From positions 1 to 64,000 of the forward strand of contig RSEH01000239.1 of the NCBI GenBank assembly GCA_006503475.1: a stretch of DNA of 64,000 bases, given 5' to 3'. Below are positions 1-33,652 of the stretch, in pieces. The notes under the pieces are model-generated. The model made no database searches. It had not been told where the DNA came from and saw nothing but the letters and a program-made list of their open reading frames with translations. The translations under genes were made by a program, and so were the position numbers. How positions within the stretch are numbered: the first letter of the stretch is position 1; every line of letters begins with the position of its first letter. Source of the DNA: Stentor roeselii. Its lineage: Eukaryota > Ciliophora > Heterotrichea > Heterotrichida > Stentoridae.

Positions 1-2
1 GC

Positions 3-191
3 CTGGTGATTCTCGAATTAGCTACTTCAAAATCGATAATTGAGATTAAGGAAGATATTGAGTCATGCTTAGAAACTGTTTCAAGTAAAGGATTATTCTG
101 GCTGAGAGAATTACTAAGAAATATGCTTTGTGAAAGTCTTGAAGATCGATTGAAGTTCTCGGAGCTTGCTGATCTTGCTATTTATTTTTAG
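3..191 (+). CDS. C-terminal end of a WD40-pseudokinase family protein (5' part outside window)
   Basis: The frame is open from the left edge and ends at TAG (189-191). The 62 visible residues align with the C-lobe end of the complete family member at 22690-27213: LVILELATSKSI here against LVIIELASLENI there, LLRNMLCESLEDR against ILRNMLLDCPQDR, and a short hydrophobic tail ending in F. This is the helix F to helix I part of a protein-kinase fold. The catalytic residues lie outside the window, so activity cannot be judged. The next gene is a pepsin-like gene in tail-to-tail orientation (1455-2711), the same pairing seen twice more in this window. It also matches the kinase remnant at 17135-17648 (LELATSKSITEI), so it probably belongs to that subfamily. 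Confidence 0.8.
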   Translation: MVILELATSKSIIEIKEDIESCLETVSSKGLFWLRELLRNMLCESLEDRLKFSELADLAIYF

Positions 192-1454
192 GATATTAAA
201 TCAATTATTACTAGGTATTTATTGTTTTCATGTGCTGAACTTTTAAAATTTGATTAGTTTTTAGAAAATTTAATTGAAGTTGATTTGAGTGATCGAAGAA
301 TTTAATAAGATGAAGGAATGGAATTTTTGGGGATGTTTTATTGAAAATATGGGAGAGTTGATTATTATTGAATTTATATTTGATATTTAATTCATTTTGA
401 AGGACATTTATTAGTTATAGACCTTTTGGGGTATATTTCTATGAAAACTGATTCTGCATCAAATAAGTATTTTATTTTAGCATAATTTTAGTTTATCCAT
501 TATTAAGTACATGATTTATTGAATATATATATAAAATATTCTATTTCTGTATTTAAATTCTTTAGTAATTTCTAGCCATAATTGATTTTGAGTCAGTTAA
601 CCTTATAAATCTAAAAATTAGATTAACTTTAATTCATCCGATATCAATTTGGCCATTTTATATACACAATATGTCAATAAAAATTACAATATGATAAATC
701 ATATTTATGATTTAATCACGATATTTCTAAATAATCATTAAAGAGGTATAATCTGAAATAACTATTTTATAGAATATTTGAAGTTTCAGAAGATTTAATA
801 AATGAAAAATTTTAACAAAGATTTATATCATAATTAAAGGTTATTTCAAATTGATATTTATTAAGAAAGAGTTAATACTGTTAATAGCTTAGATTGAATA
901 TATTAAAATTTATTGAAAACTTATGATTCAAATAAAAATAATTCGATGGAAACTTAGTAATCAATATATCATATCCTGAAAATAGTCTTTTTTGATATTT
1001 TACTTTTCATCTTAATAATTAAGTCACCAAACAATTTTTAAACTAAACTTTAAGAGATTGAATTGATTTTCTAATCAATTATAATTTCCATAATTCTTAT
1101 AATCAAATCTCTAATATTATTATGACTTAAATTATTTTTCATATCTTCTTAAATCCCTCCAATAAAAATTCGTTTAACTATTGCTAAATATGTTTCACTG
1201 ATAGGTAATTTCTCTTTGTAAGACTACTTGAATATAAATAAAGATGCTATATTAGTTAGTTTAATCCCAAATATTTGATAAAAAGGCTTAAATTTTTAGA
1301 GTTTTATCATGAGATCTTTTATAAAAATTTGATTAATATGGCTATTCTTATTAATTAATCAAATCTATTATAAATGCTCATAATCATGAGAATTGTTCTT
1401 TAATTAATTCAAAAGTTAAAATAATTTAATATCCTAATCTAACTTACTACCTAA
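192..1454. other. AT-rich intergenic spacer
   Basis: About 1.26 kb between the 3' ends of two convergent genes. No open frame of note, no recognisable RNA gene and no clear tandem repeat was seen. The last 60-70 bases before the pepsin-like stop resemble sequence just after the decayed copy at 16564 (a shared GGATATTAAAT block), so the duplicated unit reaches a little past the stop codon. Confidence 0.6.
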
Positions 1455-2711: not shown

Positions 2712-2736
2712 TTTTATTAGAAATTAACTATTAAAA

Positions 2737-2744
2737 TATAGACA
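2737..2744. promoter_or_regulatory. Candidate upstream octamer TATAGACA
   Basis: TATAGACA lies 26 nt upstream of the start codon at 2711. The same octamer, in either orientation, recurs just upstream of several accessory-region genes (see findings). Function is unknown. Confidence 0.35.
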
Positions 2745-2927
2745 TCAAATAAGTTGTAATGTTTCAAGGATCAACATATGGCCTAGATTATATTTTGTTT
2801 ATCAGAGCAGATAAATGAAAATAAAGTATTAAAATTGAAATTTGGAATCGTGATTTTGTTTGGTTTACTAAAACAATCTATTCATATTCTATAAGATGTA
2901 CTAAATTATTCTCTAATTTATGCCTAA

Positions 2928-4181
2928 CTAATAAATTCTTTCGTAAGATTCCTCTACTTGAATGTCTCTTTTTCTTATAGAATAGACTCCTAAAGAAATA
3001 GACACTAATATAAAAATAGCTAATCCACTTTGGTAAGTATTTGAAGTACGTTTATTATATTTATATTCATTATTAATTGATTCCTGAATCCAAATAGTTC
3101 TCTGAGAAATATCAAACATTGAATAATAAGTTCTAAAAAATGGTAAACCTAAGACATCATCGCTAAAATGAGTATTTGGAACTACCAAAATAGTACAATA
3201 TCCATTTCCTTCATAATTTAAGTAACTCTCTGGGCCAATCGTAAAGTTTTGATTTTTAGACCCATAATTATACGCTTCAAAAATAATATTTGGAAATGAA
3301 TAATCACATAAACATATCAACAACTTTTGATTATTTAAGTAATAAAAAGAGCAAACTCCTTTGGGTAATTCTGGAAGAAAAACTGTGTTATAGTAAGTAT
3401 AACCAAGTTTAATATATGGACTGTTCAAGTCAAAATACATATTTCGTGTTGGGTAGATTCGATTTCTATTTATCCAAGTAAACCAACTTTGTCCCATCCA
3501 ATATGAACCATTCAATCCTGCATTTATTCTTTTCATTGATTTTTCTTGGGCGAATTGTAGAGAGTCCCAGTATCCCAGAGTGAGTGTTGATTGTTTTTTT
3601 GTAATATTAGGATTGTTAATATAAACTGAAAATTTTTTCTCTAAAATGAAATTATTAGAAAGTGAACTTTCAAAAAATGTTGAAAAACTATTAATTTCTA
3701 ATCCTAGTCCAAAAAAACCATCTTTCATATCAGAATCGCTGACATTTTCACGTGTAATAAGTATGAAATCAGTATTATTTATATATTTGTTGTTTATGAG
3801 AAAATTATCACGTGCCCAGAATCCTTCATACAAATTTGAAGAAATATCAAAAGTAGCTTTAGTCGAATACATATAAAGATTAGCACTTTCAATTTGTTTA
3901 TATTTATTTTTGGTGTTATGGCAATAGCATCCATCAAAAGATATTGCAGAGAAATCGTGATTCAAGTCTAAACCAAGGTTGAATATTTGAGCAGGGTACC
4001 CAATTCCCACTTGAATAATCAATTCTTCGTAGCTTATTTCTTTTATGGGTATTTTAGTCATCATAACAGATCCATCAATTTTGGTATCATTTGGCAGAAC
4101 CTGTATTTTTTTTTCTATTGATAAAATAGGAAAAGATAGCATGCTTGATGCAACCATTAGACAAAAGCAAAAGAAAATCAT
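2928..4181 (-). CDS. Pepsin-like (A1 fold) type I membrane protein, catalytic motifs lost
   Basis: 417 residues, tandem paralogue of the gene at 1455-2711 (216 nt apart, same strand). Signal peptide (IFFCFCLMVASSMLSFP), pepsin N-lobe motif GIGYPAQ, C-lobe signature VLGLPFFRTYYSMFD, then a C-terminal membrane helix (GLAIFILVSISLGVYSI). The first catalytic site keeps the Asp but lacks Thr-Gly (D-L-N). The second site is also D-L-N. It is the only copy here that keeps Asp at the first site, so it may be nearest to an enzyme, yet it lacks both DTG glycines. The conserved cysteine pair appears as GCYCHN. The start is preceded by TATAAAT. Confidence 0.85.
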   Translation of the reverse strand: MIFFCFCLMVASSMLSFPILSIEKKIQVLPNDTKIDGSVMMTKIPIKEISYEELIIQVGIGYPAQIFNLGLDLNHDFSAISFDGCYCHNTKNKYKQIESANLYMYSTKATFDISSNLYEGFWARDNFLINNKYINNTDFILITRENVSDSDMKDGFFGLGLEINSFSTFFESSLSNNFILEKKFSVYINNPNITKKQSTLTLGYWDSLQFAQEKSMKRINAGLNGSYWMGQSWFTWINRNRIYPTRNMYFDLNSPYIKLGYTYYNTVFLPELPKGVCSFYYLNNQKLLICLCDYSFPNIIFEAYNYGSKNQNFTIGPESYLNYEGNGYCTILVVPNTHFSDDVLGLPFFRTYYSMFDISQRTIWIQESINNEYKYNKRTSNTYQSGLAIFILVSISLGVYSIRKRDIQVEESYERIY

Positions 4182-4206
4182 ATTTATAAATTTAATTATG
4201 TCTTAA

Positions 4207-5280: not shown

Positions 5281-6276
5281 TATTGCGAATCAATTTATTT
5301 TCATTTTAGTAAAATCATGAAAATAAAAATTTCATTGAATAGTATCCCTTTAGAAAACAATCAAAATTAATAGAAAATTGTACATCACGGTCTTCTATGA
5401 TATCTTTGAATACTGTTTTAAATGACTTTCAATAGTAATGATTAAATTCGGATTTAGATCATATAAAAAATACCTATTATTGCATAATTCATTATTTATT
5501 CACAAGAATTTTTGCAAAATTATCCCACTTGCTTATTGAAAATGTAATGAATATTTTTGAGTCTAATCCATAAAAATTTTTTCCAGGATTGAATTTTGAT
5601 TTAGTAAATAATTATCAAACTCATATAAGATTTGTATAGTTATTAGAATAATTAGTATGCAAACTTCAAATAGATAAAAGAAAAACTGCACCTTTTTCAA
5701 GTTAATCAACATGGATATTGAATAATGTACTTGCTTGGATTTTAAACTAGAAAAAAGTATTTTATCTTAGATATAAATAAGATCCAGATATTTGAATTAT
5801 CAGAAAACTATAAAAAGTTTCTTATTCAAAGCAGATAACAATTTTATTATTGAACCTGCAAAGGAACTCTCAAGAATTCAGCCTTTAAAATGATTCATTA
5901 AACAACTTTTATTTTTATAAGACTCAGAAATTTAATTAATTATTAAAATTGAAGATTTTTTCGGAATTGAGTCTTGAAAAGAGATCAATAATATTTAACG
6001 TTGAAATAAATTAGAGCTTATCATTTTATAGTCTTTAAGATCTTATCACTCTCTCGTTATGCTATTTATTATTAGAAAAATAAACAATTAATAATCTTAT
6101 TATAGTTTATTTTAATCTATATATATGATGACGTTTAACATCTAGGTTGATTTAAGGCAGCAATTTTCTCTAAGTTTGATATCTATGAAGGTAAAGGATC
6201 AAAAAAATATGAAAAATTTAATAAAGCTTTATAAATGTCTACAAAAAAATGAAGAAATTCTAACATAAAGAATTAT

Positions 6277-6461: not shown

Positions 6462-9400
6462 ATGGATTTCTGTCAAGTACCCAATTTACAAGTTAGTCCA
6501 AAAACTTGTAAAAATTCCAAAACAATTGAAGAAAATTGGTTATTAGACTCGTATTTATACTATTCAAAATATCATCAAAAGTCAATAGTAGGTGATCACA
6601 AGTGTGATATAGATTACTTAGTTTATGGCGATTTATATATTCCTGAATATAAAGATGCTTACTCTTACAATGCCCCATTTGCTGTTTCTCCTTGTGGCAC
6701 TTATATAGCAACTTGTGTTGGCCATTTCATTAGGATTTTTGATTTGAAATAAGATATTCTACTTTTTTCAATCAATATCATTAATAGTTCTGAAAGTAAG
6801 AGTTTTTTTCACTTTAATACACGTTATTGTTCGTTAAATTATTCAAGTGATGGGAAATATTTAATATATACTATTCAAGAAAAAGTTCATAATGTTATTG
6901 TCTGGAACTTATATGAGAGAAAAGAAGAATTTTCAATAAAGGGATCTTTTGAAAAACAAAATACATTATTTTCATTATCCAAAGACCATAAAAAATTTGC
7001 CTTTCTAACCAATAAAAAATTAATAATCTGGAATTTGCTAAAAACCTCAGAAGAATTCAGCCTTCCAGAGGTTTTATTCCAAGATTTATGTTTTTCATCA
7101 GATTCACAATATTTAATTACTCAAGAAAAATCAGGTTCACTAATAATTTGGAACCTTGAACAAAAATCAATAATTATTAACCTTGAAATTCTAGTACCCT
7201 CAATAAAAGTTAAATCATTTGAAAGTAATGGGACGTTAGTTTTAGACAATCAAATGAAAGGATCAATTGAAGTCTGGAATGCTTTTGAGAAAAAAAAGAT
7301 CATAAATCTTGAAAATACTGAAAATTGTTTTGCATATGAAAAAAATTTTATTTATTATCGAAGTGATTCAATGGATGTTAATTTAATATAAAAAAATTTA
7401 CAAAAACTTATTTGAAATTACATGAAAGCAGGTTTTCCTCTTGTGAAAAATCATTGTTTTCACCTGATGCAAAATATTTAGGAATGGTGTTTTATGAGTA
7501 CTTTTTTGTATTTAAAAATGAGAAATTTCTGGAAAATGAGGTTGAAGAGCCTCATATAATGTATTATATGGATGTTAAAAATTTATTGTTTTCAGATGAT
7601 AGTTGTTATTGTGCTGTAATGAGTCTTGATAACAAGATATATGTGTTTGACTTGCTTATAAGAGATTTCTTTATTCAACTGGACTATAATTTCAACCTGA
7701 AGTTTAGTCAGAAAATTTATCATCATTTAGTGGCAGAAGAACCAGAAGATTTTGAAAAAATTACGAAATATTATCCTAAGGTCAGGTTAAGAGTAGAAAA
7801 TTTTTTGTCTACGAATAATCTAAAATATAAATCTATGACTTTTTGCAGAAAGTCTTTTAAAGATTTGGTCAGTATGAATGAAGAATTCCACAAGGGTGCT
7901 TTAATTTCCAAATCGAGTATTGAGTACCATGATCAAGATTTAAATAAAGAAATCTTAATCCAAAAAATAAAAACTTCAAATCAAAAGTTCAACTTTTCAT
8001 TCTCAGAATTAAAAATGCAAATAATCTTTATTCCAAATATTCTCCATGTAAAAATTATTTCACAATACATTACAGAAGTTATGAAGTTTTATTTTGGAAT
8101 TTCGATGAAAATAAGCAATTATTTCCTTTTTCCGATAATCCTGATATTATAAGTTGCTTATCTTGTTCTCTCGATATGAAGTTCGCAGTTGTTGAGCTTT
8201 CAAATTGGACAATGTCCGTATGGAACATGACTGAGAAAAAGATTGAATTTACTCCTTTTATCGAAGACTCTGTAATTGAAATTTCTCTTTCAAGTTATGG
8301 AAACTACTTGTCAATAATCTTTAAAAATAATAAAATAAAAGTTTGGAGAGTGAAAACGAGTCAAGAAGTTTTTGCCTTAACAGTTGATATTTTTCATAGT
8401 TTTACTTTTTCCCCTCAGGAAAAGTATTTCCTGGTCTTCTATACATTTAGAAATATAATAATCTGGAACTTAGAGCTTAATCAAGAGGAAATGACAATTA
8501 AGGAAGAATTAGAAAATGGACCTGCTTTTTTTTTCACTCATAATGATGAATTTTTGTTCATAAATGAAAAGGCTACAATTGGATGTTTTCACTTCTGGAA
8601 TTTAGACTTGAAGAAAAAAATAATTATGAGGAATGATTTAGATGATTATCAATCTCGATATGATTATAATATTTCGGATTACTCTGCAATTAGTCAACTT
8701 TTCGCAATATCTCGATCTGATGATATAAACTGTGAAGCTGAAATATGGAATCTTATGAGTGAAAACCTTATTTTTTCATATGAAACTACTGAAATCCGCT
8801 TATTAAAATTTTCTCCTGATGGACAACATATTGATTTATTATTAAAAGAAAGTTTTATCATCCTAAACATTCAAAACCATCAAGAAATAGATTTAAATAG
8901 AAAAATAGATTTCAATGATTATAAACCTTTTAGAAAGACTGAAAGTTTTTCATTTTCTCATGATGGTGAAGTGATATTATTGAAAAAAATTAAATCAGTT
9001 ATTATATTTTATTTGAAAGAAAATAGATATAAAAAAATTAAACCTATGAATAATAAATCTTATATTAGATCTGTAGACTCTAATATGCACAATAATATAA
9101 TTTTGATCAAACAAGATTCTTCTTTCATTGTATTCTGGAATATCTATACATTAAAAAATCAATTAACCATTAAAACTCATAATTATTTAAATATTTATAA
9201 AGGTAAAAGCTCTTACTGCGAGGAAAATCAACTCTATAAATATTGTTCAAACGAAGAATTCTTAGCAATAGAGGACTATAATAAAAGTATTAAAATATAT
9301 AATTTACTTGAGATGAAAGAAGAATTTACTCTCAATCCATGTGATGATTCTTCAAATTTATTCTCAGATAATTTTGAATTTAATTTTTGCTACTCTACAG

Positions 9401-10281
9401 ATTTTGTATTTAGTTATTATCGGAAGTATTTTGTAACTGCATCTAGAGATGGAATCATTAATTTTTAGGATATAAATGAGAGAAAGCTCATATTTACTCT
9501 AGGTTATCATGAAGGTGTTAAAAATCTATTTTTTTCAGCAAATGAAAATCTTTTAGCATCTGTGTGTGATCAAAGAACAGAATTATGGGATATTCAAAAC
9601 CGGAATGTTTTATATACAATTAATGACACTGCAGAAAATGTTGCAATTTGTCCTGAAAATGTATTTTTTGTATTCTGCCATCATCTAAAAATTAGAATTT
9701 GGGATTTAAAAATCAACAGGTTGGTGATAACATTAGATTATAAGTTAGTTAATATAGATTGTGCACATATTATAGTAGATCTTCAAGAAAAATTAAAAAT
9801 TATCATATCAAGTCAATATTTATGGATTTCTTGTTTAAAAGGGGTATTCAAATTTTCTCTATGGAATAAATTGTGTGGTTTACTTAATAAATTTTTAACC
9901 ATCTGCATAAAGCAAAGGGAAAACTTTGAGGATCTGCATAAAGATATGATTGTAGCTCTAAAATTATACGATTATAATAAATTTTATTCAAAAAGCATAA
10001 TCAAAGCTAAAAAAAAATATAATCAACTTGCGTCAAATTTCATTATTGAATATTCCCTCACAAAATGTAGTGTTTTGTCAAAAATGCTTTCAAGATATAT
10101 TATTGATTTTTCGAAACTTAGTTGTCATCTGTCTCATTTAAGCCCTCATGCAATTGAAATCCTTAATCATTATTCAAAAGTAGCATATATGGAAGATGGC
10201 AATGATGATAATAACGATATGCGGGTTTTACTATTTTTAACTGATTTCAGCAATGAAATAATTAAATTAATCATTGATTAG
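6462..10281 (+). pseudogene. Decayed WD40-repeat gene (paralogue of 17649-21470)
   Basis: The start (MDFCQVPNLQVSPKTCKNSK) and nearly all of the 1,273-residue protein of the opposite arm can be followed, but the frame is broken. TAA stands where the intact copy has CAA (about 6750). Small indels shift the frame near 7385 and near 8010-8160. TAG stands where the intact copy has TGG (about 9466). The remaining open stretches are 6462-6752, 7035-7391, 7412-8152, 8176-9468 and 9562-10281. The start keeps the TATAAATG context. No kinase-domain remnant follows the last stretch, unlike the other arm. It is a host gene copy under relaxed selection; a translated product is unlikely. Confidence 0.88.
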
Positions 10282-10655: not shown

Positions 10656-13600
10656 CTAATCATCACCCTCAAGTCCATTCTCAGTAGAATTTGGAATTCT
10701 ATCAAAATACCCAAGCTCTTTCGCAAAAACTTCATTATCCTTTAAAAACTGAAACAAAAACAACAATCCAATATCAGCCCCTTTTTTATTCTGTAATGGA
10801 TTCGGAGTCCTATAAATAAAAAAAATTCCAGTAATCAAAATCCCAAAAGACCCCACAGGAGTAATAATCGCCCAAGCCAGATAATTCTTAACTTCTCTAA
10901 AAATTGAAGAGGTAAAAACAATCCAAAAGGAAAGCGAAAGACTCATCAATTGAGCGATATTCGCATGTTCATAGTTATAAGGTTTAAACTTCAAAGTTAA
11001 AATAATCAATATTCCTATAAAAAAAGCAGAAAGTAAACCATGAGCAGTCTGATCACTTTTTTTCAATGTTTTACTTAGACATACTAAAATCACTTGAAAA
11101 ATGCTAAAAATTGACAAATACCAGGATTTTGTCCTGATCATCAAACAAGTCTGAACATTTTCCCAGTAAGGTTTCATGAAAGTTGATAAAGCCACGTAAA
11201 AAACAAGGAATATAAAAGTTAATATTGCGAAGGACTTGTGACTATCAGTATAACAAAAAGTGTAACAGTCAGAATCCAAGTAAAGGTCAGAAAAATCATC
11301 TCCAATACTTTTCCTGCAAAGAAATAAGTTCATTAGCATTGAAATCACTGGGATAAAAGTAATGCTGGAGATTAATGGAAAGAGAAATTCATTTAAAAAT
11401 GTCAAGTTTTCTATCAACCAGTTGTTTTTTAATCTTAAAGCATGTTTCAAGACTATCAAACAAAGAAAAACAGTCCAAAAGATGCAGAAGGACAGAACAA
11501 AATAAAAAAATTTCCAGAATTTATCCTGTGATAAATTATAAAACTCATTGTAATTAAAAGATAAAAATAAATCTGAATCCTTGAAAATTTCTTTAAAATA
11601 AGAAAGACTCGGCCCTAAAATCACGATTTGAAAAAACTGGAAAAAAAAACTAGCAAAAAAAACTTTATCTGAAAAACTCGCTTCATAAACCCCTTCAATC
11701 AAAAAGTAACTCATTTCAAATCTCTTCCAAGAACAAACAGCACAAAGGACCGAGACAAGAATTAAAACAAAACAAAGAACAAACATCACCATTATTCCTT
11801 TTTCTGATTCTTGAATTTGCTCTTCTTCAAAGGGACAATCGAATTTTTCTATAAAATTTTCCGGAATTGAATCATCAGGCCATTCAATTTTATTTTCATA
11901 GAAAAGAAAAGTATCTGAAAGTTTATCTAGAGTTAAAATCGCCTTTTGAGTGAAATTTTCACCTTCTAGAAAAAATTGAGAAATTTCGAATTTTGCTGAA
12001 GCTTTATTGTTACTGTCTCTACTAAAATAAATATCTCCCATGCACCCTTTGACTTTGATATCTCTGATGATTTTCATTAGTTCAACTGGATTTTCTATGT
12101 CTTTTCCTTGTGCAAGGGCGTAGTTTATTGCAGTAGTTGCGACAGTCACTGTGTCATGACTCATACAGAAAAAATTGAGATTTTTGAATAATTGACTCAT
12201 TTCTTGGTAAAGTTGTTGACCGTTTGAACCTGTCCATTCTTTGTATCCGATTAAGAAACTTCCTGATGTTAATTCAATGATTTTTGATTTGTGGGTTATG
12301 TTTTTTTCTCGGTTGAAACTCTCGATAAAGCCTAGGTCTAAGATGGAGTATAATTCACCTTTTCTTAAACCTACATCATAAAGTGCTTCATAAATAAAAC
12401 TACTCTGCCAGAAGAACACCATAAAAAACCTACAACGAGAGTTTTTTGCTACTTCAAAATATTCTCTAAACTCATGAAAATCCTCTCTAGTATAATTAGA
12501 TGGTATCACTCTTAAATGTTCTGGGTTAACAATATCAACTCCTCTAGCTAAACACAAGCTTTGAAATCCAAGAAACATTTCCGCATACGCTTCATCATTC
12601 GTTCCAAACAAAACAACAGATTTCCACCCAAGAGACAAAATAAAATTTAAAACATTTGTCATATACTCTAATTCAGAAACCGTCATTTTCACAAAAAAAT
12701 TCAAATTTTCTTTATTTTCTACAATTTTATTTTGAGCAAACATAGAAATCTGAGGAATTTCCTTATTTAAGTACTTTAAAGCCATTGCATTTCCAAATGC
12801 GCTCCAATACCAATAACTTGTTAAATAAAGAATAGGAAAAGGCTCGTAAAGTACTTCAGAGAGTTTCATTGTGTACCACGAAAGATCGAATGAAAAAATT
12901 CCTGTATCTGTTGGCCTGAGGACTATTTTAAATCCAGGGATCAAGTTAAGCGAGTTGACTTTAGAAACAGCGAAAATCGCTGCATTGAAGAGGTAACTGA
13001 AAATTTCAACACTATACCAATTAAAGATCTCATTTGTGCCATTTGCAATGAGAAAAACTAACTCTTTAGTAATAGAAACATTTATAGAGTTTACACCTCC
13101 TGGGTAAAGAATTTCTTCAGAAATTGAAATATTTTGATTGATACTTCCAACGGGAGTAACTTGGTTATTTTTTAGGTTTAAAACAGAGAAACCTTCAGTT
13201 TTCACTAGTTTCTTTTCGATTATTTTAAGAACTGATAAAAAACAGTAGTTTTCGTAACTTGAACTTGATTCCAGCCCAGTTTGACTAAGTATTAAACTTC
13301 CTTCAATAAAAACAGCACCAATAGAAAAAGATGAAAAGATGAAAAGTGCTCCAATATCATTAACCCTTTTCAAAATCAAACTTTTTTGAATAATTCCCAA
13401 GCTAGGTCCTTGGTCAATGATTATCAAAAACCTAAACCCTGTATTTTTTACTTCTTTTTGAATTAAGTTCAACCCTCTCTGCAAGTCAAGGTTTTCATCA
13501 TAAGTGATCATTTTAAAAACTTTACTTTTCAGCCTTGAATAAATTTCATTAGCGAAATTTAGAACTTTATGCGAACTGGAAGTGAAAATTATCAAATTTT

Positions 13601-17200: not shown

Positions 17201-17289
17201 CATATTTATTATATTTTTAAAATATAACAAAAAATCTATTTATGTTCAATATATTCATACATTTTAAATAAAACATAATTAACATATTT
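17201..17289. repeat. 82-bp insertion flanked by 7-bp direct repeats (CATATTT)
   Basis: CATATTT occurs at 17201-17207 and again at 17283-17289. Removing one repeat plus the sequence between them (82 bp) exactly restores the coding string RNMLCERPEDR that paralogues show at this place. The insert is almost pure A+T and has no open frame. The outline fits a small transposon-like insertion with a target duplication or an unexcised ciliate internal eliminated sequence. Confidence 0.75.
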
Positions 17290-17479
17290 CTCAGTAATAC
17301 TTTAAGCCACAACAAGCTTCGATTGGATAGATTTTTTAAAAATGATTCAATATTTGCTCTTATTTCAGTTATCGACTTTGAAGTAGCTAATTCAAGAACT
17401 ACCAGGCCTAAAGAATAAACATCACATTTTTCAAAATCAATAATTTTGTCTGAACTTAATTTTTCTTCTTTTGAGGATC

Positions 17480-17625
17480 GGCAATCATCAATTTTATCAA
17501 AATAATCTTTTTCTTCATCTGAATATCGAGAATCATCACTATCAAAAATTTCTCTATCTGAGTGTCGAGAATCATCAATATTATCTAAAATATATTTTTC
17601 ATCATCTGAGTATCGAGTTAATTTT
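17480..17625 (-). repeat. Acidic S/D-rich tandem coding repeat
   Basis: On the minus strand at least three imperfect units encode DDSRYSDEE-like peptides (RYSDDEK, DDSRHSDRE, DDSRYSDEE, then DDCRSSKEE). The repeat lies between the WD40 stop and the kinase remnant, where the full-length paralogue has no such sequence. Confidence 0.6.
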
Positions 17626-22689: not shown

Positions 22690-25600
22690 ATGGAATCCTC
22701 TCGAGCCCAAAGCTCTTCAGAATACATAAAAACCTGTGATTTTATCAGAAATAATGAAAATTTAACCAAGGCAGAATGGATTCATGAGTTTTATTCACTT
22801 TATTCGAGAAATAACCAGAAGCCTTTGGAGATTGACTACTCAAGGCCTCATCACTTTAGAAACTTTTATGATTTAGAAGAAGATCAGGTTATTCTAGGAA
22901 TGGCTTTTTCACCTTGTTCGAACTTTGTAGCAACTCTGACTAAGACTTCAATTAAAGTTTGGGGATTGCAAAGAAATAAAATAGAATTTTCACTCAAAAT
23001 AAATATCAGTGATAAAGAAATGATCAATGAATGTAATGATGTTATTGGGTACTTGTATTATTCTAATGATGGAAAGTCTTTGATTAGGCTTACTCTCAAT
23101 CTTGAATTATCTAAATTACAAGTAAAAATCTCTAATCTTCAAGAACAAAAAGAAGTTTTTTACCTATCATCAGATCAACTTGACACAAACTCTCATTTCT
23201 CAATATCCCAAGACCACTCCAGATTAGCTTACATATCAAACAACATCCTAAAAGTCTTCAATTTACAAAACTTCTCAGAAGAATTCACCCTTTCAAAAGT
23301 CACTTTCAATTCCTTTTGCCTTTCTTCAGATGATAACATTTTAATCACCTTTAAAGAAAATTCTCTAAAATTTTGGAATTTTCAAACAAAAGTCAATTTT
23401 AAACTAAAAATGAAAAAAAACAGTGATTTAAGCCTTCTTTCAACAAATAATAAAAAAATTTTAATAATCGAGTCAGAAGACGATCTTGAATTTTTCGATC
23501 TTCAAGAAAAAAAAATTCTTTTTCAAGTTGAAAATTTTGGCTTTTATAATAAAACAATTTTTTCAAATGACGGAAATTTTGTAGTATTTGTTGGAAATAA
23601 ACAAATTTTTGTGGAAAACTTAAAAAACTCTAGAAGAAACAGTTTAAAAGGTTTAGAACATTTTATTTTAACTTTTGTTGAAATGCAGTTTTCATTTAAC
23701 AGTCAGTTTTTAGTAGTTTCTGTGAGTGAAGAGATCTTTTTGTGGAAAAAAAAAATTCTGCCTCCTGAATTTGAAAGTCCTTCTTTTAGCTTGAAATTTA
23801 TCTGCTCTGCTTTTCTGTTTTCACCAGACAGTCGAAATCTTGCTCTTTTAGAAAAAAATGGAAGTTTAACTCTTGTTGAAATACCCAACGAATTCCAAAT
23901 AGTTCAAAAAGGCACAAGCGGCAAGTCCTTATTTCCAACCCGAAGCCTTAATCAACCCACAGAATCTAAAAATCCTGAAAACCTTAAAAATTCATCAAAA
24001 ATCTTAAAAAAACTAGAAAAAATCAACATTTTTCCTATTTTCACTCCAAAGTACTCAGAAGTTGAAATAAAAGAAAGAATAAAACAATTAAAACAAAAAC
24101 TAAACTTTTCATCTCATGGGTCAATTTCACAAGACTTTGAAATCCTGAGTTTTTCACCTAAAAAAAAATTTATTTCTACCTTCTCAAAAGATTTTTCAAT
24201 AAAATTTCTAGAAATCGAAGAAAAAAATCAAAATTTTTCTTTAAAAAACTCGAAAATAATCAGGTTTCTTTCACATTCTTCTGACTTGAACTTCGCTGTT
24301 GTCGAGTTTACAAATGGAGTGATTTCCGTTTGGAACATTGAAGAAAAAAAAGAAGAATTTAAATTATTTCCACAAGAAGTAGTCATTTTGACTGTTCTTT
24401 CTTTTAATGGGAATTATTTGGCAGTACATTTTTTATCAAATATTTTAAAAATCTGGAAAATTTTTGAAAATCGAGAAATTTTAAATTTTAGTTTTAAGGA
24501 CATTGAATCTTTTGGCTTTTCACCTGAAGGAAAATTTTTTTTAGTTGCTTTTGAGGAGAATACGATTCTTGTTTTTGACTTAGAGTCGAGAAGTGAATTT
24601 TTAAGAATTTTTCATCATTTCTGGCATTTGAAGTTTAGTAAAAATTTCTTGTTTTCTGATGATGACTGTTTTTTAATGGTTAATCAACAATGTAAGAAGG
24701 TTAAGATCTGGGATTTGATGGAAAAGACTGAGATTGAAATAGGGGAAAGTGAAGGGTATGACTATGGACTTTCAGCTTTTTCTAATAAAAATAAACTTTT
24801 TGCTATTTTCAGACCTGATATGATTGAGATCTGGGATTTACAAGAAAAAACATTGAATCATGAGGAAGAGTCTTCAAAGATCACCTCGATTTTATTCTCA
24901 CCTGATGGAAAAGTTCTCGCCTGGGAACTAGAAAAATCAATAAAAATTCTAAACATTCAAAATAAACAACTTCAGTCAATTTGTCTAGAAAAAGTCATTC
25001 CAAGTTTAAATCTTTCTACTTTTCGCTTCATTCAAACAGGACTTTCTTTCTCTGATGAAGGGAAGGTCTTATTTTATGGAACTTTTGATAAAGAATTGTT
25101 TTTTTATCAGCAAGGAGAAAATTTGAAGGTCTTTAAATTTAAAAAAAATTTTAAAGTCAATTCAATTTTTTTTAATAAGAAAAAAAAAGTTTTTGTTATT
25201 GAAAAGTTTTATTTTTTTGTTGAGGTTTGGAATTTGGAAGATTTTCAGAAAAAAATGATTCAAAATCGATTTGAGGAAAAAATTTTATTGAAATTTTCGA
25301 ATAATGAAGAAAAACTTGCGATTGACTTGGGAATGAAAAAAGTTGTTTTTGATTTGTTGAAGGAAAGTGAAGAATTTGTTTTTGAAGAGAAAGATGAATT
25401 TTGTTTTCAGTCATTTGGAGAAGATTTGGATGATTTTTATGGGAATAGCTTTAGATATTCTCAGGAAGAATTTAAGAAGATTGTTTTTTTCCCTAGGGAA
25501 GAGTTTTTCGCGTTTGAATCAGAAAATGGTGTAATTAATGTTTGGGATGCTGTTAAAAGATTACCTGTGTTTATATTAGGTGAACATTTTGGTATTAGGG

Positions 25601-27213
25601 AATTGTTTGTATCTACCAGGGAAGACTTTTTAGCATCGGTTAATTATGAAAAAATAAAAATTTGGAATTTGATTGATAGATGTGTTTATCTTGAAATTTA
25701 TGGCACTTGTACATGCATTACTTTTACATCAGACAGTCTTTTTTGTGCAATAAATGACGATCAAAGAATAAAAATATTAAACCTCTCCACAAAGAGATTA
25801 ATAATCTCACTAAATCACTGCATCCAAACAGTAAAAAACATGATATTCACAAATGAAGATCAAATTTTGTGGATATCTGGAAATGATGTTTCATTTAAGT
25901 TTGCCTTTTCGAACAAATTATTTTCTTTGCTTAACGAAGATTTGCATACTTTTATTAAACAAAGAGAAAACTTGAATGACCTGTTAAATGATATGAAAGT
26001 GGCACTTAGATTATATGATTATGATAATTATTTTACTAAAGCCAAACTCACTGCTGAAAAAAAATTCAATGAATTAGTCTCAAAAGTATTTATCACATTT
26101 TATTTAAACAAGTGCGATAATTTAGCAGAAATTCTTGTGAAATTTATAATGGATTATGCGGCAATAGGTATTTTTTTATATGATCTCAATCCAAATGCAA
26201 TGATGATTATTGAAAATCATCTAAAAAAAGTATTCAAAGATATTATTGAAGACTGCGATGTTAAGATTCTAATGTTTTTGATTGATTGCTGTCATGAAAT
26301 TAAATTTAAAGCACAACTCAAGCAAGATCTAGAAAAACTAAATGATTTGAAAAATTTTTTCAAAAAAAAAGTCTTAAACATGAACCCTTCTTCAAATTTC
26401 GAAATCGAGGAAAAAATCAACAACGAGTCTCTTCAAAAAGCCAAACTTTATCAATCAAAACAAAAAAAATTCTACGAAGTAAAACTTTCAAGATCAAAAC
26501 TTGAATTCCATACAGTGTTAATAAAGGAATATATATTAAAAAGCGATTTACCAAAAGAAACCAAGGAAAAGCTGATAATCGAATTTAAAAAAGAAGCAAA
26601 ATGTTATCAAATCCTTGAAAAATCCATCTGCAACTATTTCAGTTGTTTAAATTCAACCAAAATTTTTTTAACAATGATCGAATCTCACAAGTCTCTGAAA
26701 AAATCTTTAAAAGACTTAAATTTCCAAAACAAATTAAACGACCTTCACTATTTCAAGAAAATTCTCAACTCTTTAATCCATTCTTTCGCGATATTATCAA
26801 GTAAAAACATCTTACATCGTCAAATTTGCCCTAAATCCTTGCAAATTACATCAAACTTTGAAATAAAAATCATTAATTTCCTTTTTGCATCAGTAAAAAT
26901 CAATGAATCCTGGCATGTTCCTGAGAAAAGCCTTTTGACTAGCACAAGTCAACTTTATAGATCACCTGAAGAAAGTTCTAATGAAAACCTCGACTTGGAA
27001 AAATGCGATGTTTATTCTTTGGGACTCGTCATTATTGAGTTGGCAAGTCTTGAAAATATTAGAAAAATTAAAGAAAATCTTAAATCGTGTTTGGATGATC
27101 TGAGGATGGGAAAGTTTTGTTGGCTTTGGCCTATTTTGAGAAATATGCTTTTAGATTGTCCTCAAGATCGACCTAGTTTCTTAGAACTCTCGTTGTTTCG
27201 GTTTAATTTTTAG
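22690..27213 (+). CDS. WD40 multi-propeller protein with C-terminal pseudokinase (complete)
   Basis: 1,507 residues, the only complete family member here. Residues about 60-1120 hold some 16-18 WD40 blades (VWNIEEKK, IWKIFENR, IWDLMEKT, IWDLQEKT, VWDAVKRL, IWNLIDRC). Residues about 1130-1290 are helical. The tail, from about 1290, has a kinase fold: a Lys in VLIKEYIL, a Glu in EFKKEAKCY, then HRQICPKSLQI (1376-1386), NFLFA (1396-1400), YRSPEE and DVYSLG. The catalytic Asp (HRD to HRQ), the metal-binding Asn (to Gln) and the DFG Asp (to Asn) are all replaced, and no glycine loop is seen, so it should not phosphorylate. The start is TATAAATG. A pepsin-like gene follows tail-to-tail (27875-29113). 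The product is probably a cytosolic scaffold; partner unknown. Confidence 0.88.
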   Translation: MESSRAQSSSEYIKTCDFIRNNENLTKAEWIHEFYSLYSRNNQKPLEIDYSRPHHFRNFYDLEEDQVILGMAFSPCSNFVATLTKTSIKVWGLQRNKIEFSLKINISDKEMINECNDVIGYLYYSNDGKSLIRLTLNLELSKLQVKISNLQEQKEVFYLSSDQLDTNSHFSISQDHSRLAYISNNILKVFNLQNFSEEFTLSKVTFNSFCLSSDDNILITFKENSLKFWNFQTKVNFKLKMKKNSDLSLLSTNNKKILIIESEDDLEFFDLQEKKILFQVENFGFYNKTIFSNDGNFVVFVGNKQIFVENLKNSRRNSLKGLEHFILTFVEMQFSFNSQFLVVSVSEEIFLWKKKILPPEFESPSFSLKFICSAFLFSPDSRNLALLEKNGSLTLVEIPNEFQIVQKGTSGKSLFPTRSLNQPTESKNPENLKNSSKILKKLEKINIFPIFTPKYSEVEIKERIKQLKQKLNFSSHGSISQDFEILSFSPKKKFISTFSKDFSIKFLEIEEKNQNFSLKNSKIIRFLSHSSDLNFAVVEFTNGVISVWNIEEKKEEFKLFPQEVVILTVLSFNGNYLAVHFLSNILKIWKIFENREILNFSFKDIESFGFSPEGKFFLVAFEENTILVFDLESRSEFLRIFHHFWHLKFSKNFLFSDDDCFLMVNQQCKKVKIWDLMEKTEIEIGESEGYDYGLSAFSNKNKLFAIFRPDMIEIWDLQEKTLNHEEESSKITSILFSPDGKVLAWELEKSIKILNIQNKQLQSICLEKVIPSLNLSTFRFIQTGLSFSDEGKVLFYGTFDKELFFYQQGENLKVFKFKKNFKVNSIFFNKKKKVFVIEKFYFFVEVWNLEDFQKKMIQNRFEEKILLKFSNNEEKLAIDLGMKKVVFDLLKESEEFVFEEKDEFCFQSFGEDLDDFYGNSFRYSQEEFKKIVFFPREEFFAFESENGVINVWDAVKRLPVFILGEHFGIRELFVSTREDFLASVNYEKIKIWNLIDRCVYLEIYGTCTCITFTSDSLFCAINDDQRIKILNLSTKRLIISLNHCIQTVKNMIFTNEDQILWISGNDVSFKFAFSNKLFSLLNEDLHTFIKQRENLNDLLNDMKVALRLYDYDNYFTKAKLTAEKKFNELVSKVFITFYLNKCDNLAEILVKFIMDYAAIGIFLYDLNPNAMMIIENHLKKVFKDIIEDCDVKILMFLIDCCHEIKFKAQLKQDLEKLNDLKNFFKKKVLNMNPSSNFEIEEKINNESLQKAKLYQSKQKKFYEVKLSRSKLEFHTVLIKEYILKSDLPKETKEKLIIEFKKEAKCYQILEKSICNYFSCLNSTKIFLTMIESHKSLKKSLKDLNFQNKLNDLHYFKKILNSLIHSFAILSSKNILHRQICPKSLQITSNFEIKIINFLFASVKINESWHVPEKSLLTSTSQLYRSPEESSNENLDLEKCDVYSLGLVIIELASLENIRKIKENLKSCLDDLRMGKFCWLWPILRNMLLDCPQDRPSFLELSLFRFNF

Positions 27214-27874: not shown

Positions 27875-29113
27875 TTATATGCTTAGATATATTTGCCTTT
27901 CATCATCCCTATTTTTTCGAATGTAAATAACTCCTAAAGCAAATGCAATCATTACAACCGCAGACATTGCACTCTGATAAACGTTAAACAAACCTTTTGT
28001 AGTACTGAATTCGTTGTTTATAGACTCCTTGAAATAAATTAAGTTGTTTTCAGCATCAAACATGGTGTAGTAGGTTTTAAAAAATGGTAAACCTATAATA
28101 TCATTAGTTCTAGATTTATTATTTCTCTGTATCAAGACAGTACAAAGTCCATTTTTTTCCTTTCTCAAGTAATTTTCCTTAAAAATAAGAAAACTTCCAT
28201 GATCCGAGATATACCCAATAGTAGGAAAATAGCTAGAGCAATCACACATCAAATAGCTTTCCCTATTATCCAAAGTATAATTAAAGCAATTAGCCCATAT
28301 CTGAATATAAGGAAGGAAAAAAATATCATAATTATTATACCCCATAATAATCGATTGTCTACTAACATCAAAAGTGATATTTTGAAGCAAAACATTCGAT
28401 TTTCCATTAACAATAATAAACTTCGTTTCCACCATCCAAGCCTGTCTATCCTCCAAAGTTTTCATAAACCCAACAGGTCCAATCTGTGCATATTCAACAG
28501 AATCCCAATAGCCTAAAGTAAGTGCTGATTGTTTCAAAGCTTTATGAGGACTACTTATATATATTGAAAATCGCTTTTCTTGTAAAAAACCTTTTTTTAC
28601 TAATTGTGAAAGAATTTCTTCTTTTCCTTTCCCAAGACCTAAAAAACCATCTGCCTTTGAAAAATTTCCAATGTTGTCCCAGGTAAGCATTAGAAAATTT
28701 ATGTCGTTTATGAAATTGCTTTTTAGTAAAAGACCGTCAGATAACCAGTATCCTTCACAGTAAAAGGAAAGACAGGATTCTCCGAATAGATCTGGACTTT
28801 TTAATTGTTTGTAGTGGCTTTGGTTTGGGTTGTATTTTTTGGTGGAGTTGTGACAATAGCAACTCTCTCCTGAGACGAAGGAATAGGAGTTTACAAGGTT
28901 TAGGCCCATGTTGAGGATTTGAGGAGGGTATCCAAATCCAATTTTAATAGTAAACTCTTCTTGCTTGATTTCTGTTAAAGGAATAGCATTTAAAGCTATT
29001 GATCTATTCATATCTGACTCCTCAGGAGTAACTTTAATTATTTTTTCAATGGAAGAAATAGAAAACTTTAAAGTTTCTGCTGATATGATAGTAAAAAGAA
29101 ATAGGATTACCAT
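27875..29113 (-). CDS. Pepsin-like (A1 fold) type I membrane protein, catalytic motifs lost
   Basis: 412 residues. Signal peptide (MVILFLFTIISAETLKF), N-lobe motif GFGYPPQ, C-lobe signature IIGLPFFKTYYTMFD, then a C-terminal membrane helix (MSAVVMIAFALGVIYI). The first catalytic triplet reads N-L-V and the second D-V-S, so both DTG motifs are absent. The family cysteine pair is SCYCHNS. The start context is TTTATAAATG. This is the tail-to-tail partner of the complete WD40-pseudokinase gene. Several N-glycosylation sequons (for example NDINF is not one, but NRS and NIT are) fit a secreted topology. Confidence 0.85.
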   Translation of the reverse strand: MVILFLFTIISAETLKFSISSIEKIIKVTPEESDMNRSIALNAIPLTEIKQEEFTIKIGFGYPPQILNMGLNLVNSYSFVSGESCYCHNSTKKYNPNQSHYKQLKSPDLFGESCLSFYCEGYWLSDGLLLKSNFINDINFLMLTWDNIGNFSKADGFLGLGKGKEEILSQLVKKGFLQEKRFSIYISSPHKALKQSALTLGYWDSVEYAQIGPVGFMKTLEDRQAWMVETKFIIVNGKSNVLLQNITFDVSRQSIIMGYNNYDIFFLPYIQIWANCFNYTLDNRESYLMCDCSSYFPTIGYISDHGSFLIFKENYLRKEKNGLCTVLIQRNNKSRTNDIIGLPFFKTYYTMFDAENNLIYFKESINNEFSTTKGLFNVYQSAMSAVVMIAFALGVIYIRKNRDDERQIYLSI

Positions 29114-29626: not shown

Positions 29627-30865
29627 CTAAACCCTTTGATACTCATATTCCGCTTGACCCTTCCTCACATAAAATCCTCCTAAAGCAAGAGCAAAGACAA
29701 CCACAACAGCAAGTCCACTCTGATAAACCTTAAACGAACTTTCCTTGAAATCTTGCTCATGCCTTATCGCCCGCTTGAGGTAAATATTTCGGTTGTCCAT
29801 GTCAAACATGGCGTAAAACTGTCTAAAGAAGGGTATTCCGAATATGTAACTATTTTGATTCAAGTTTGGCTGAACTAATATCGAGCAATACCCTTCTTTA
29901 TTATAGTATATGTAACTTTGGGGGTCTATCGAAAGCTTCTGCGAGTTTATTGTGAAGTATAAAGTGGGAAACAGTCCTTCACAGTTACAGATCAAATAAT
30001 ATTCTTTTCCTGATGAATGGTAAAGGTTGCAGTTTGCACTTTGGGGAAGTTTTGGTAGGAAACTATTGTGAAATGTAGAGTTTGGGATTTTCAGTGAGGT
30101 GCTTGTTAAATCGAATATTGCGAGGTAAATGTTTCTATCTACAATCTGATCTTTTATTTGCATCAAGGTTACTGAAGCTTGCCATCCAGTATTATTTGAA
30201 TAAACCGGGACTTTCCAAGTAGTACCACTTTCTCCATACTGTTCCGAGTCCCAATATCCAATAGTAAGCATCGATTTCTTTTTAATTGTATTCGGATTAT
30301 TAAAAAAAACCGAAAATCTCATCTCTTCAATTCTATGCTCAGACCTCAGCCTATATAAAGTAGTGAAATGTGAATTATTAGCATAGAAGCCAAGTCCAAA
30401 GAAGCCGTCAGCAGTGACCCAATCAGGAATATTATCATTTTGTATTGCGATGAATTCAGTAAATTTTATAATCTTCTTACCTATCAAGATGCAATCCTTC
30501 GCCCAGTACCCTTCGAAGTTATAAGAAAAACTACTGAAGTTCACCTTTTTGAAGGAACTCTCGAAGTTCAAGCTATTCTGAGGGGAGTACTTGTTTTCTG
30601 ACCTGTGGCAATAGCAGGTGTCCAGCGGGATAATCATGAAGTCGTTGTTCAGGTTTAGCCCCAGGTTGAGCATTTGAGGTGGATTACCGATTCCCATTTT
30701 TATCGTGTATTCTAAGGTACTTATCTCTTTTAGTGGAATCATCGGCATACTTATTGAGCTGGAAAGGGGTTTGACTGGCTCTAGGGACAGTTTGATCTGC
30801 TTTGAGGTCAGTGGGATCGAGAATCTACTCGCTGAGACTACTACCAGTAGCAAAATAAGTGACAT
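29627..30865 (-). CDS. Pepsin-like (A1 fold) type I membrane protein, catalytic motifs lost
   Basis: 412 residues. Signal peptide (MSLILLLVVVSASRFSIP), N-lobe motif GIGNPPQ, C-lobe signature IFGIPFFRQFYAMFD, and a C-terminal membrane helix (GLAVVVVFALALGGFYV). The catalytic triplets read N-L-N and D-L-T instead of DTG. The cysteine pair is TCYCHRS. The start is in TATAAATG context. It is the second gene of a tandem pepsin-like run (27875, 29627, 32399), all on the minus strand. Its base composition is somewhat less AT-rich than the copies at 1455 and 2928. Confidence 0.85.
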   Translation of the reverse strand: MSLILLLVVVSASRFSIPLTSKQIKLSLEPVKPLSSSISMPMIPLKEISTLEYTIKMGIGNPPQMLNLGLNLNNDFMIIPLDTCYCHRSENKYSPQNSLNFESSFKKVNFSSFSYNFEGYWAKDCILIGKKIIKFTEFIAIQNDNIPDWVTADGFFGLGFYANNSHFTTLYRLRSEHRIEEMRFSVFFNNPNTIKKKSMLTIGYWDSEQYGESGTTWKVPVYSNNTGWQASVTLMQIKDQIVDRNIYLAIFDLTSTSLKIPNSTFHNSFLPKLPQSANCNLYHSSGKEYYLICNCEGLFPTLYFTINSQKLSIDPQSYIYYNKEGYCSILVQPNLNQNSYIFGIPFFRQFYAMFDMDNRNIYLKRAIRHEQDFKESSFKVYQSGLAVVVVFALALGGFYVRKGQAEYEYQRV

Positions 30866-32398
30866 TTATATTTATGCCCAATCTGATAAAGATGTCTATA
30901 ATTTCTATAGCTTGAAATAATGAAATATTTGAAGAATTTTTATATATTTGAATCGATCGGGTTTAACTAATAAAAGAATGATTATGAAGGAATTAAGTTT
31001 CTTTGGTTTTCCAGAATTGGTTAAATTTTTATTATGATATTCATGTAATTCAATTTCACTGTGACGCTGTAAACTCATAGAGGTTTACAAAACGATTGCT
31101 ATTTCAGTGAATCAAATCATCAAACAATCAAAGTTGTGATATTTTGAAATCCCTCATATTTAAAAAATATTCAAATATTTTTTCTAATCTAACAAAAAAC
31201 ATGTAAGAAATTATTATGTAAGAGACGGTAATGTGAAATAGATTGAACTTAAATTAGGATTCTAAAAATCATCTATACTAAGGAACTAATCACTTGACGT
31301 AGTCTGGAAAAATCATTTGATTTATAAGGAAAATAATGGTGGTCTTATTCAATTTTTGTGGATTTTTCAAACTTTCATTATATGAAAAGCCTCCAATCTC
31401 ATTCATTTAAGTTAATTGATAGATTTTTTTAAATTAAGAAATATATGTTTAAGGATCTTTAGATGGGTTGATAAAATTCTGAAATTTTCTTCATTCCAGC
31501 GTTAAAGAATTGAATCATAATTTGAAGTTAAATGTCTTGAAATTTAAAAAAAAGTATTTCCGTTGTTTATAATTTTGATTTTTTAGACTAAAAGAATAAT
31601 AAAAACGATTATTCCGAAGAGAATATTTAATACTTGTTTAATAATATCAGTCAAACTTTAACTGATTGTTTTTGTATATTTATTTATTCATATGAGTTAA
31701 TAAAAAATTCATATAGGAAATGGTTTTCGACTGGAATTTTAAGTTGAAATAAATATATTACAAATCATTTACCAAGAAAAAGTAAAGTTTATTTATTTAC
31801 TTGACAGCATTTCCTTGAATTAAATGATTTATAAATTAAATAGTGTCCAATTTATGTAATAATGGTGCAAATTGAGCACGATTTATATTCGACTTCAAGT
31901 AAATTAATAGGTTATTATTTTATATCATTAAAAGAATAAATTAATCAAACCACAGAGAATTAAATCTTCATAAAATTACTGAAGCGCCATCATCTCAAGT
32001 TGAAATTCGATGAAAATATTTTTCATATTTTATCGATTCCAATTTTCGTGTTTGTTTAATAAAAGAATTAAAAAGATAATAACTCTCCGTTTGATATTGT
32101 TAAAGATGAATTTAACTAGTTTCATAGACTTGAAAAGTCTGATTTAAGTGCAAGTAATTTTTATTAAAATTGTAAAAATTTAGGAAATTAAAATCTTCAA
32201 AAGACTTCAGACATGTTCAATTGAAAAAGAGTTTTATCAATTTCATGCTCCTTTATATAGTTTTAAAGTTATGTTGTTGCAGATTTTAAATATATTAAAA
32301 TCTAATCATTCATAATAATTATCTTTCTTCATACAGCTTTCAAGTTTATGCTTATCTAAATTTCATTATTTAATATCTAATTATAATCAATAAACTAT
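30866..32398. other. AT-rich intergenic spacer
   Basis: About 1.5 kb without a supported gene. I looked for a further decayed pepsin-like copy and did not find one. Confidence 0.55.
30893..30900. promoter_or_regulatory. Candidate upstream octamer TGTCTATA
   Basis: TGTCTATA lies 28 nt upstream of the start at 30865. With one following A it forms TGTCTATAATTTCT, which is also found upstream of the receptor gene at 14027-14040. Confidence 0.4.
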
Positions 32399-33652
32399 CT
32401 AGTAAATTCTTTGATATGTCTCTCCTTGATTATTTCCTAAATTTCTTACATAAATTACTCCAAAAGAAAGAGCAGCTAAAACAAACATTGATATTCCACT
32501 TTGATATACAAGAAAATAACTTTCATTTAATTTGTATTCATAAGTTATTGCTTCTTGAATGTAAATATACCTATTATCAGCATCAAACATTGTATAGTAT
32601 GCTTTAAAGAATGGTAGGCCTAAAATATGCACATTCGAATCAAGATTTCGCTGAATTTGAACAGTGCATAGTCCATTTTTTTCTTTTTTAAGGTAAAATT
32701 CTTTATAAATTCTTATATACCAGCCATTCACATTGTATCCTATATAAGGGTAATCAGCTTCACACATGCAAATTAAATATGATTCCTTATTATCCAATTC
32801 AATAGTACTACAGTTATTATTTGCTAAATATGGAAGAAAATAATTATCAAAATGATCTTTAGGCAGTTTGATACTCTGAATATTAAAATTGAAAGCTACA
32901 GAATGCGAAATTGAATAAAACCAATCATCAATTATAAGATTGGATGCTTTCACGGTCCAAGAATAACTATCATTTGCTAGTTTTAAAACTCTAGATGATC
33001 CACCTTGTGCATACTCTAAAGGGTCCCAGTATCCCAAAGTAATGCAAGACTGTTTTTTTATATTTTCCTGATTGTTTATATAGACTGAAAATATTTGTTG
33101 TTTTATTATACCCATTCTCTTTAAAAGTGAAAGGATATTAAAATTATAATTGCCAGAATAAGGTCCCAATCCAATAAAACCATCAGCACTAAAATAACCA
33201 GGGTCATTGTCTTTAGTTACCATGATAAATTCAAAATAGTTCACATATTTACTTGCAATTAAAATATCATCAAATACCCAGTATCCTAGATAGTGATATG
33301 AATATTGATTAAAACTCACTCCATTGCCAATCTTAAAGTTTGGGCTTTTAAATGGAGTATATTTATGTTCAGATTTATGACAAGCGCAGTTATTACCTGA
33401 TACATATGTAACAGTGTCATTCAAATTTAATCCAAGATTCATCACCTGAGGTGGGTACCCGAGCCCAACTTTTATTATGAATTCTTCATGTTTTATTTCT
33501 CTTAAGGGAAAGGCAGACAACTTCAAAGACCCATTGAAATTCGTATAATGATTCAGAACTTTCATTGTTTTTTCATTTGATAATATTGGAAATGATAGCT
33601 TTGCTACTGAAGCGACTGTCAAGAGTAAAATATAAATCATATCCTTAACCAT
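32399..33652 (-). CDS. Pepsin-like (A1 fold) type I membrane protein, catalytic motifs lost
   Basis: 417 residues. Signal peptide (MIYILLLTVASVAKLSFP), N-lobe motif GLGYPPQ, C-lobe signature ILGLPFFKAYYTMFD, and a C-terminal membrane helix (GISMFVLAALSFGVIYV). The first catalytic triplet is N-L-N. The second reads N-F-N, so even the second Asp is gone, making this the most thoroughly inactivated copy. The cysteine pair is NCACHKS. A second in-frame Met (MIYILL) four codons in could be the true start. A TATAAATA sequence precedes the first ATG. Confidence 0.85.
   Translation of the reverse strand: MVKDMIYILLLTVASVAKLSFPILSNEKTMKVLNHYTNFNGSLKLSAFPLREIKHEEFIIKVGLGYPPQVMNLGLNLNDTVTYVSGNNCACHKSEHKYTPFKSPNFKIGNGVSFNQYSYHYLGYWVFDDILIASKYVNYFEFIMVTKDNDPGYFSADGFIGLGPYSGNYNFNILSLLKRMGIIKQQIFSVYINNQENIKKQSCITLGYWDPLEYAQGGSSRVLKLANDSYSWTVKASNLIIDDWFYSISHSVAFNFNIQSIKLPKDHFDNYFLPYLANNNCSTIELDNKESYLICMCEADYPYIGYNVNGWYIRIYKEFYLKKEKNGLCTVQIQRNLDSNVHILGLPFFKAYYTMFDADNRYIYIQEAITYEYKLNESYFLVYQSGISMFVLAALSFGVIYVRNLGNNQGETYQRIY

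Follow-up and report, generated by a model that had tools for sequence, protein, structure and literature searches.

When genes of two catalytically impaired protein families lie side by side more than once, and in the same relative orientation, do the partners form a functional unit or has one stretch of DNA been copied with both of them aboard? This question is raised by a locus of the ciliate Stentor roeselii, where genes for WD40-pseudokinases neighbour genes for membrane pepsin-like proteins. The window, i.e., the whole stretch of DNA analysed, comprises 64,000 nucleotides and corresponds to bases 1-64000 of contig RSEH01000239.1 (C160; 71,760 bases) in assembly GCA_006503475.1 (44.4 Mb, 522 contigs). 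The arrangement is very probably the outcome of two pseudoenzyme families expanding independently and of local segmental duplication, with no conserved two-gene functional unit. As for the setting, the telomere repeat (CCCTAACA)n, also given for Blepharisma (PMC9942806, in part), occurs on contig ends (e.g., C5 and C31, among the matches listed), and all 14 long frames checked terminate with TAA, TAG or TGA, which together fits a heterotrich ciliate using the standard code. The gene cluster in question (1-34 kb) has a GC content of 0.267 vs 0.349 in the remaining window.

In the sequence-only reading of this DNA, a WD40-pseudokinase gene was described as lying tail-to-tail with a pepsin-like gene on three occasions, which involve the following features:

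1..191, plus strand: A, final 62 codons of a WD40-pseudokinase gene truncated by the contig end (79% DNA identity to the pseudokinase tail of contig C484)
1455..2711, minus strand: pepsin a, membrane pseudo-pepsin of 418 amino acids, motifs NMN/DIN, tail YQRI (Pfam, alignment)
15450..16564, plus strand: psi, pepsin pseudogene in several frames with stops (85% to pepsin a, inverted)
17217..17624, minus strand: detached kinase tail of C
17649..21470, minus strand: C, WD40 and helical open frame of 1273 amino acids, stopping before the kinase N-lobe
22690..27213, plus strand: D, intact WD40-helical-pseudokinase of 1507 amino acids, HRD changed to HRQ and DFG to NFL
27875..29113, minus strand: pepsin c, pseudo-pepsin, tail-to-tail with D in the sole intact pair

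The three neighbourhoods, namely A/a, C/psi and D/c, do exist at these places, but two whole genes face each other in D/c only. The member of A/a at 3-191 is nothing but a 62-codon gene end, where the contig starts, and both partners of C/psi (17135-21470 with 15450-16564) are broken, neither being a whole gene.

Were the pair a unit, its members would be expected together elsewhere in the genome. The collection covers 32 contigs for the pseudokinases (39 loci or pieces) and 47 contigs for the pepsin-like genes (65 loci), the former set compiled by hand with some outer borders estimated and with kinase-only and helical-only matches excluded, the latter corresponding to 66 matches, all of them scored as candidates, with two split genes joined and psi added. 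Outside C160 and two related contigs, C12 and C484, a pepsin-like gene lies within 10 kb at none of the 31 pseudokinase loci found and within 20 kb at one; reciprocally, a pseudokinase lies within 10 kb at none of 56 pepsin-like loci and within 20 kb at one. The sole case within 20 kb is a head-to-head arrangement at 14.6 kb on C391, and tblastn searches with both families on the flanks of 13 of the 31 pseudokinase loci revealed a pepsin-like gene on that contig only. As regards the intact pair itself, the contigs carrying the pseudokinase relatives of D (C18 and C441) show no pepsin-like match, and the clade-mates of pepsin c, i.e., e and the C391 copy, have no pseudokinase as a close neighbour. 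The members found elsewhere are thus unpaired, one of the two observations by which the sequence-only reading had proposed that its functional unit be judged.

Within the cluster too, the tail-to-tail orientation is one among several, as appears from the remaining genes of both families in the window and an interposed receptor-like gene:

2928..4181, minus strand: pepsin b, pseudo-pepsin with motifs DLN/DLN (both Asp present, Thr and Gly gone), tail YERI
5352..5628, minus strand: relic of a D-like WD40-pseudokinase gene, on the strand of pepsin b (80% to 26290-26011, inverted)
6462..10281, plus strand: B, WD40 and helical gene with stops and frame changes, without kinase domain (86.8% DNA identity to C, inverted)
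10656..13988, minus strand: ANF_receptor protein of 1110 amino acids, tail-to-tail with B (PF01094, 36.3 bits)
29627..30865, minus strand: pepsin d, pseudo-pepsin
32399..33652, minus strand: pepsin e, pseudo-pepsin of the clade of c and the C391 copy (pepsin tree)
38005..39243, plus strand: pepsin f, pseudo-pepsin, the closest WD40-pseudokinase of the window being D, more than 10 kb off

The cluster order is then A tail (+), pepsins a and b (-), D-like relic (-), broken B (+), ANF_receptor gene (-), psi (+), truncated C (-), intact D (+) and pepsins c, d and e (-). B departs from the pattern, since its head-to-head neighbour is pepsin b and its tail-to-tail neighbour the ANF_receptor gene. The relic of a fifth WD40 gene shares its strand with pepsin b. 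Over C160, C12 and C484, four orientations are tail-to-tail, two head-to-head and two same-strand.

What the neighbourhoods do share is copied DNA. Inside the window, inverted matches link a with psi (85%) and B with C (86.8%), while the tails of A and C match along 125 bases at 76%, and A/a and C/psi have 60 bases of spacer in common at 85%. A/a and C/psi are consequently not independent, given both the inverted identity of a and psi and these matching spacer pieces. Bases 1-3628 of C12 match window 1-4998 in three blocks (82-88%) that cover most of the latter and include the A tail, the spacer and pepsin a, most of b being absent there, and the spacer at C12 670-901 corresponds to the C/psi spacer at 16592-16821 (80% over about 230 bases). 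Because A/a, C/psi and the C12 pair copy one another down to the spacer, they would most likely derive from a single convergent arrangement. A duplicated segment that carried both genes, which had been offered as the alternative to a functional unit, thus holds for these three, precisely as spacer DNA was copied along, and the fast turnover with pseudogenes also suggested at the time is a right description of this cluster. C160 and C12 further have one and the same starting base, within a gene, with a 22-mer (window 1-22, C12 1-22) unique to both in the assembly. A natural chromosome end at the start of C160 was rejected, as the start base is shared with C12 and telomere repeats are missing; the shared unique 22-mer and this lack of repeats favour instead an assembly break in a repeat, which is probably the case.

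Nor do the two gene trees branch alike. The pepsin tree was built with C515 left out and with psi covering 40% of the columns; the pseudokinase tree was built without C92, C53, C16 and C80, the A and C12 tails covering 13% of the columns, B 30% and C 44%. Among pepsins, a and psi group together (95/89) and are joined successively by C12 (100/100), b (89/90) and C484 (89/89), while c, e and C391 form a separate clade (100/99) and d and f/C5 lie further out. Among pseudokinases, A and the C12 tail group together (92/87) and are joined by C484 (97/93), C and B form a pair (100/99), and C441, D and C18 fall outside A/C12/C484/B/C. C484 thus belongs to the A group by its pseudokinase but stays apart from a, psi and C12 by its pepsin, and the matching branching expected of co-duplicated partners is contradicted, since A/C12/C484 conflicts with C/psi.

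Several points weigh against the interpretation of independent expansion. (i) One test of the tree conflict is marginal: the approximately unbiased (AU) test rejects the grouping of A, the C12 tail, B and C without C484 at p = 0.037 only, for a constraint chosen after the first tree had been inspected and with an A tail of only 62 amino acids. (ii) The numbers of pseudokinase loci are minima, as one search had 96 of its 495 candidates scored and another 31 of 815. (iii) Eight pseudokinase loci or pieces have a pepsin within 10 kb vs about 1.1 by chance, all on the three related contigs; this is real local linkage, of few origins. (iv) D/c may go back to an early copying of this pair, its spacer having since diverged past recognition.

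Considering the proteins themselves, every pepsin-like protein of the window that is intact, six in all, matches the Asp domain (PF00026) over nearly the full profile (E 2e-15 to 3e-34; 57-119 bits for a Pfam cut-off of 19.9). The D-T/S-G motif, the catalytic motif of the pepsin family, is broken at both sites in all ten aligned members of the clade; the first aspartate is replaced by N in six and by S in one and kept in three, and the second position is D in nine and N in one. The catalytic residues, described as lost in the sequence-only reading, are not gone throughout, both aspartates being retained in three of the ten (b, C484 and C5). The membrane anchor also predicted is borne out: a late hydrophobic stretch together with a terminal YXX-phi motif is present in nine of the ten clade members and in 13 of 17 rows overall, the C484 sequence being cut short. 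Tails of this kind route proteins to endosomes and lysosomes, and the terminal YXX-phi is likely to be such a sorting signal here. The labels "receptor" and "exposed" do not carry over, this tail being as suggestive of endosomal or lysosomal membranes as of the cell surface. Since a protein encoded on C142 combines both DTG motifs with the anchor and the YXX-phi tail, it was probably an active membrane protease that gave rise to the dead clade. On a side note, membrane pepsins sharing the YXX-phi tail lose their catalytic motifs by degrees (C142:66378-67292, C30:107304-117788). No LAMP family was found among the Pfam matches, and the structure predicted for pepsin c (six window sequences; mean pLDDT 44.4) was not used.

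On the other side, the D protein (22690-27213) has WD40 matches and a Pkinase match (PF00069) of 38.7 bits for a Pfam cut-off of 31.7. The HRD aspartate, a catalytic residue of protein kinases, is gone in all 15 aligned pseudokinases, in line with the catalytic loss first read from the sequence; that loss is incomplete, however, as the beta-3 lysine remains in all 15 and the DFG aspartate in 13. The N-terminus of D shows no hydrophobic leader, and a 19-residue stretch of its helical region (1145-1163) has a mean hydropathy of 1.78. The common rule-of-thumb threshold being 1.6, the term "cytosolic" is for D a presumption. Pseudokinase loci outside the cluster tend to lie near contig ends, with 18 of 31 within 10 kb of one vs about 24% expected (binomial 4e-5) and 22 of 31 oriented outward (0.015, for a list compiled by hand). 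Considering the distance to the contig start only, where 11.8% would be expected, the counts are 4 of 56 pepsins, 6 of 34 ordinary kinases (hand-picked controls, C19:66436 excluded) and 20 of 49 loci of the WD40-helical/pseudokinase family. Telomere repeats are seen at the end of C391 and the starts of C413, C122 and C516. The enrichment is nonetheless not decisive, because many contig ends near pseudokinase or WD40-helical loci carry no telomere, the window cluster's own contig end included, and because repeated genes break assemblies. WD40-helical loci without kinase match (on C281, C83, C6, C517, C161, C256, C127, C441 and others) were also noticed, 15 of 18 lying within 10 kb of a contig end and 16 of 18 pointing outward.

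Taken together, the two pseudoenzyme families would have expanded separately and met in one AT-rich, fast-turnover cluster, where a convergent WD40-pseudokinase/pseudo-pepsin arrangement would have formed. Its DNA, along with the spacer, was then duplicated as one segment, inverted within C160 and also between C160 and C12, whichever way the copying may have run, and is now partly decaying. Each family probably acts alone. The pepsins are type I membrane proteins, kin to active membrane aspartyl proteases. With their retained pepsin domain and LAMP-like YXX-phi tail, they are probably binders of peptides or proteins at the membranes of endosomes or food vacuoles, while the WD40-helical-pseudokinases are probably cytosolic scaffolds.

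Next to this account of separate expansion, the alternative that survives best, albeit as a doubtful one, is that the cluster pseudo-pepsins alone form a diversifying recognition system with the WD40 genes as passengers, segments being exchanged and residues free to change while the reading frame is kept. It arises from the comparison of pepsin a with its C12 copy, for which dN/dS is 1.05 and the frame is intact. Among 109 differences over 1254 bases, 74 change a residue and none creates a stop, where random placement gives a mean of 6.9 stops and leaves only one draw in 3000 stop-free; no insertion or deletion falls within the frame, a single 1-base gap lying just before the start codon, whereas the spacers have several. 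The changes are concentrated, residues 161-280 holding 40 of the 74, and over nucleotides 601-750 the private changes number 23 out of 36 on the C12 side, vs 4 and 9, a pattern as after segment exchange or conversion. However, the 74 residue changes are slightly under the 80.5 expected from random placement, dN is significantly greater than dS in none of the seven windows of this comparison (lowest p 0.365), and a weak constraint on residue identity would look alike, so that the pattern is compatible with either diversifying selection or weak constraint. Moreover, only this one copy pair behaves so. The other pepsin pairs look constrained (0.08-0.39), with dN/dS of 0.08 for f-C5 (dS 2.58, near saturation), 0.30 for a-b, 0.16 for a-C484, 0.21 for c-e and 0.39 for e-C391, c-d being saturated; for the pseudokinase C-terminal part, six pairs drawn from seven main-clade members give 0.28-0.49 and four pairs around D give 0.24-0.30. 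In its fullest form, which appears improbable, the cluster pseudo-pepsins would diversify as endosomal or surface peptide binders through chromosome-end duplication and segment exchange, with the frame protected and residues changing at or above the neutral rate, while the WD40-pseudokinases facing chromosome ends would be separate cytosolic scaffolds.

That the pair is a functional unit, with a pepsin-like protein for recognition on the outside and the WD40-pseudokinase as its cytosolic scaffold, both co-duplicated with diversifying specificity, is very unlikely, as the three tail-to-tail neighbours and their fourth copy on C12, the pseudoenzyme nature of both partners, the linkage above chance on three contigs and the frame kept in the fast-changing a/C12 pair are set against the absence of close pairing at the loci found elsewhere, the mixed orientations, the tree conflict and a pair composed of two broken genes.

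A true conserved neighbourhood looks different. A NAC-like gene (named by eye) stands head-to-head with pepsin f (window 37345-39243), and C5 129582-131381 is alike; no pseudokinase occurs in the 28.6 kb of C5 around the f paralogue. Pepsin f and the NAC-like gene represent an old conserved neighbourhood, unlike the pairing of WD40-pseudokinases with pepsins. C5 was also considered as the site of a matching cluster and rejected, since positions 125000-153588 hold, apart from the f paralogue and a telomere, nothing that matches either family (E 1e-3). Two more observations concern the surroundings of B, namely (i) the ANF_receptor protein (10656-13988), the C-terminal half of which has several hydrophobic stretches (by eye) and appears class C receptor-like, and (ii) positions 5789-6007, 5' of B, which are 68% like 6967-7189 within B, a further WD40 gene remnant.

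With independent expansion as the preferred explanation, the tempting two-component receptor system drops out in favour of a simpler account, i.e., gene-family turnover in an AT-rich cluster. The remaining interest lies in the gradation from a DTG-bearing protease (C142), via part-decayed forms, to the constrained pseudoprotease f (dN/dS 0.08, near saturation). As most of this graded series carries an endosomal-type tail, a heterotrich is well suited to asking what a dead pepsin is for.

As for known systems, neither "WD40" nor "aspart" occurs in the main text of PMC10946202, and no pair of a WD40-pseudokinase with a pseudo-pepsin was met among the matches listed for the literature searched, mostly open-access. 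Both families add to kinds of expanding pseudoenzyme families that are already known. Lysosomal membrane proteins of the LAMP type are type I proteins whose short cytosolic tail terminates in YXX-phi; they share this tail layout with the window pepsins, where the lumenal part is pepsin-like. The cockroach allergen Bla g 2, unlike the window pepsins, is not known to carry a membrane anchor. Like them, it is considered inactive, being termed an inactive aspartic protease (PMC9541408, in part). In Tetrahymena, the top seven domains encoded by species-specific genes include WD40 and protein kinase. Such genes (including WD40, kinase and LRR families) are enriched in the subtelomeres and pericentromeres of the germline, where tandem duplication is more frequent and Ka/Ks higher; the excerpted account names no WD40-helical-pseudokinase fusion (PMC6564038, in part). 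Those regions belong to germline chromosomes, whereas contig ends of an assembly are concerned here. Finally, the bovine pregnancy-associated glycoproteins (PAGs; pepsin family A1) likewise form a large pepsin-like family, in which many members of the modern group have substitutions in the catalytic centre possibly precluding activity, while the ancient ones are predicted to be active (PMC2682831, in part). PAGs are placental and termed secreted (PMC3335542, in part), whereas the proteins of the window bear a C-terminal membrane anchor and a YXX-phi tail.

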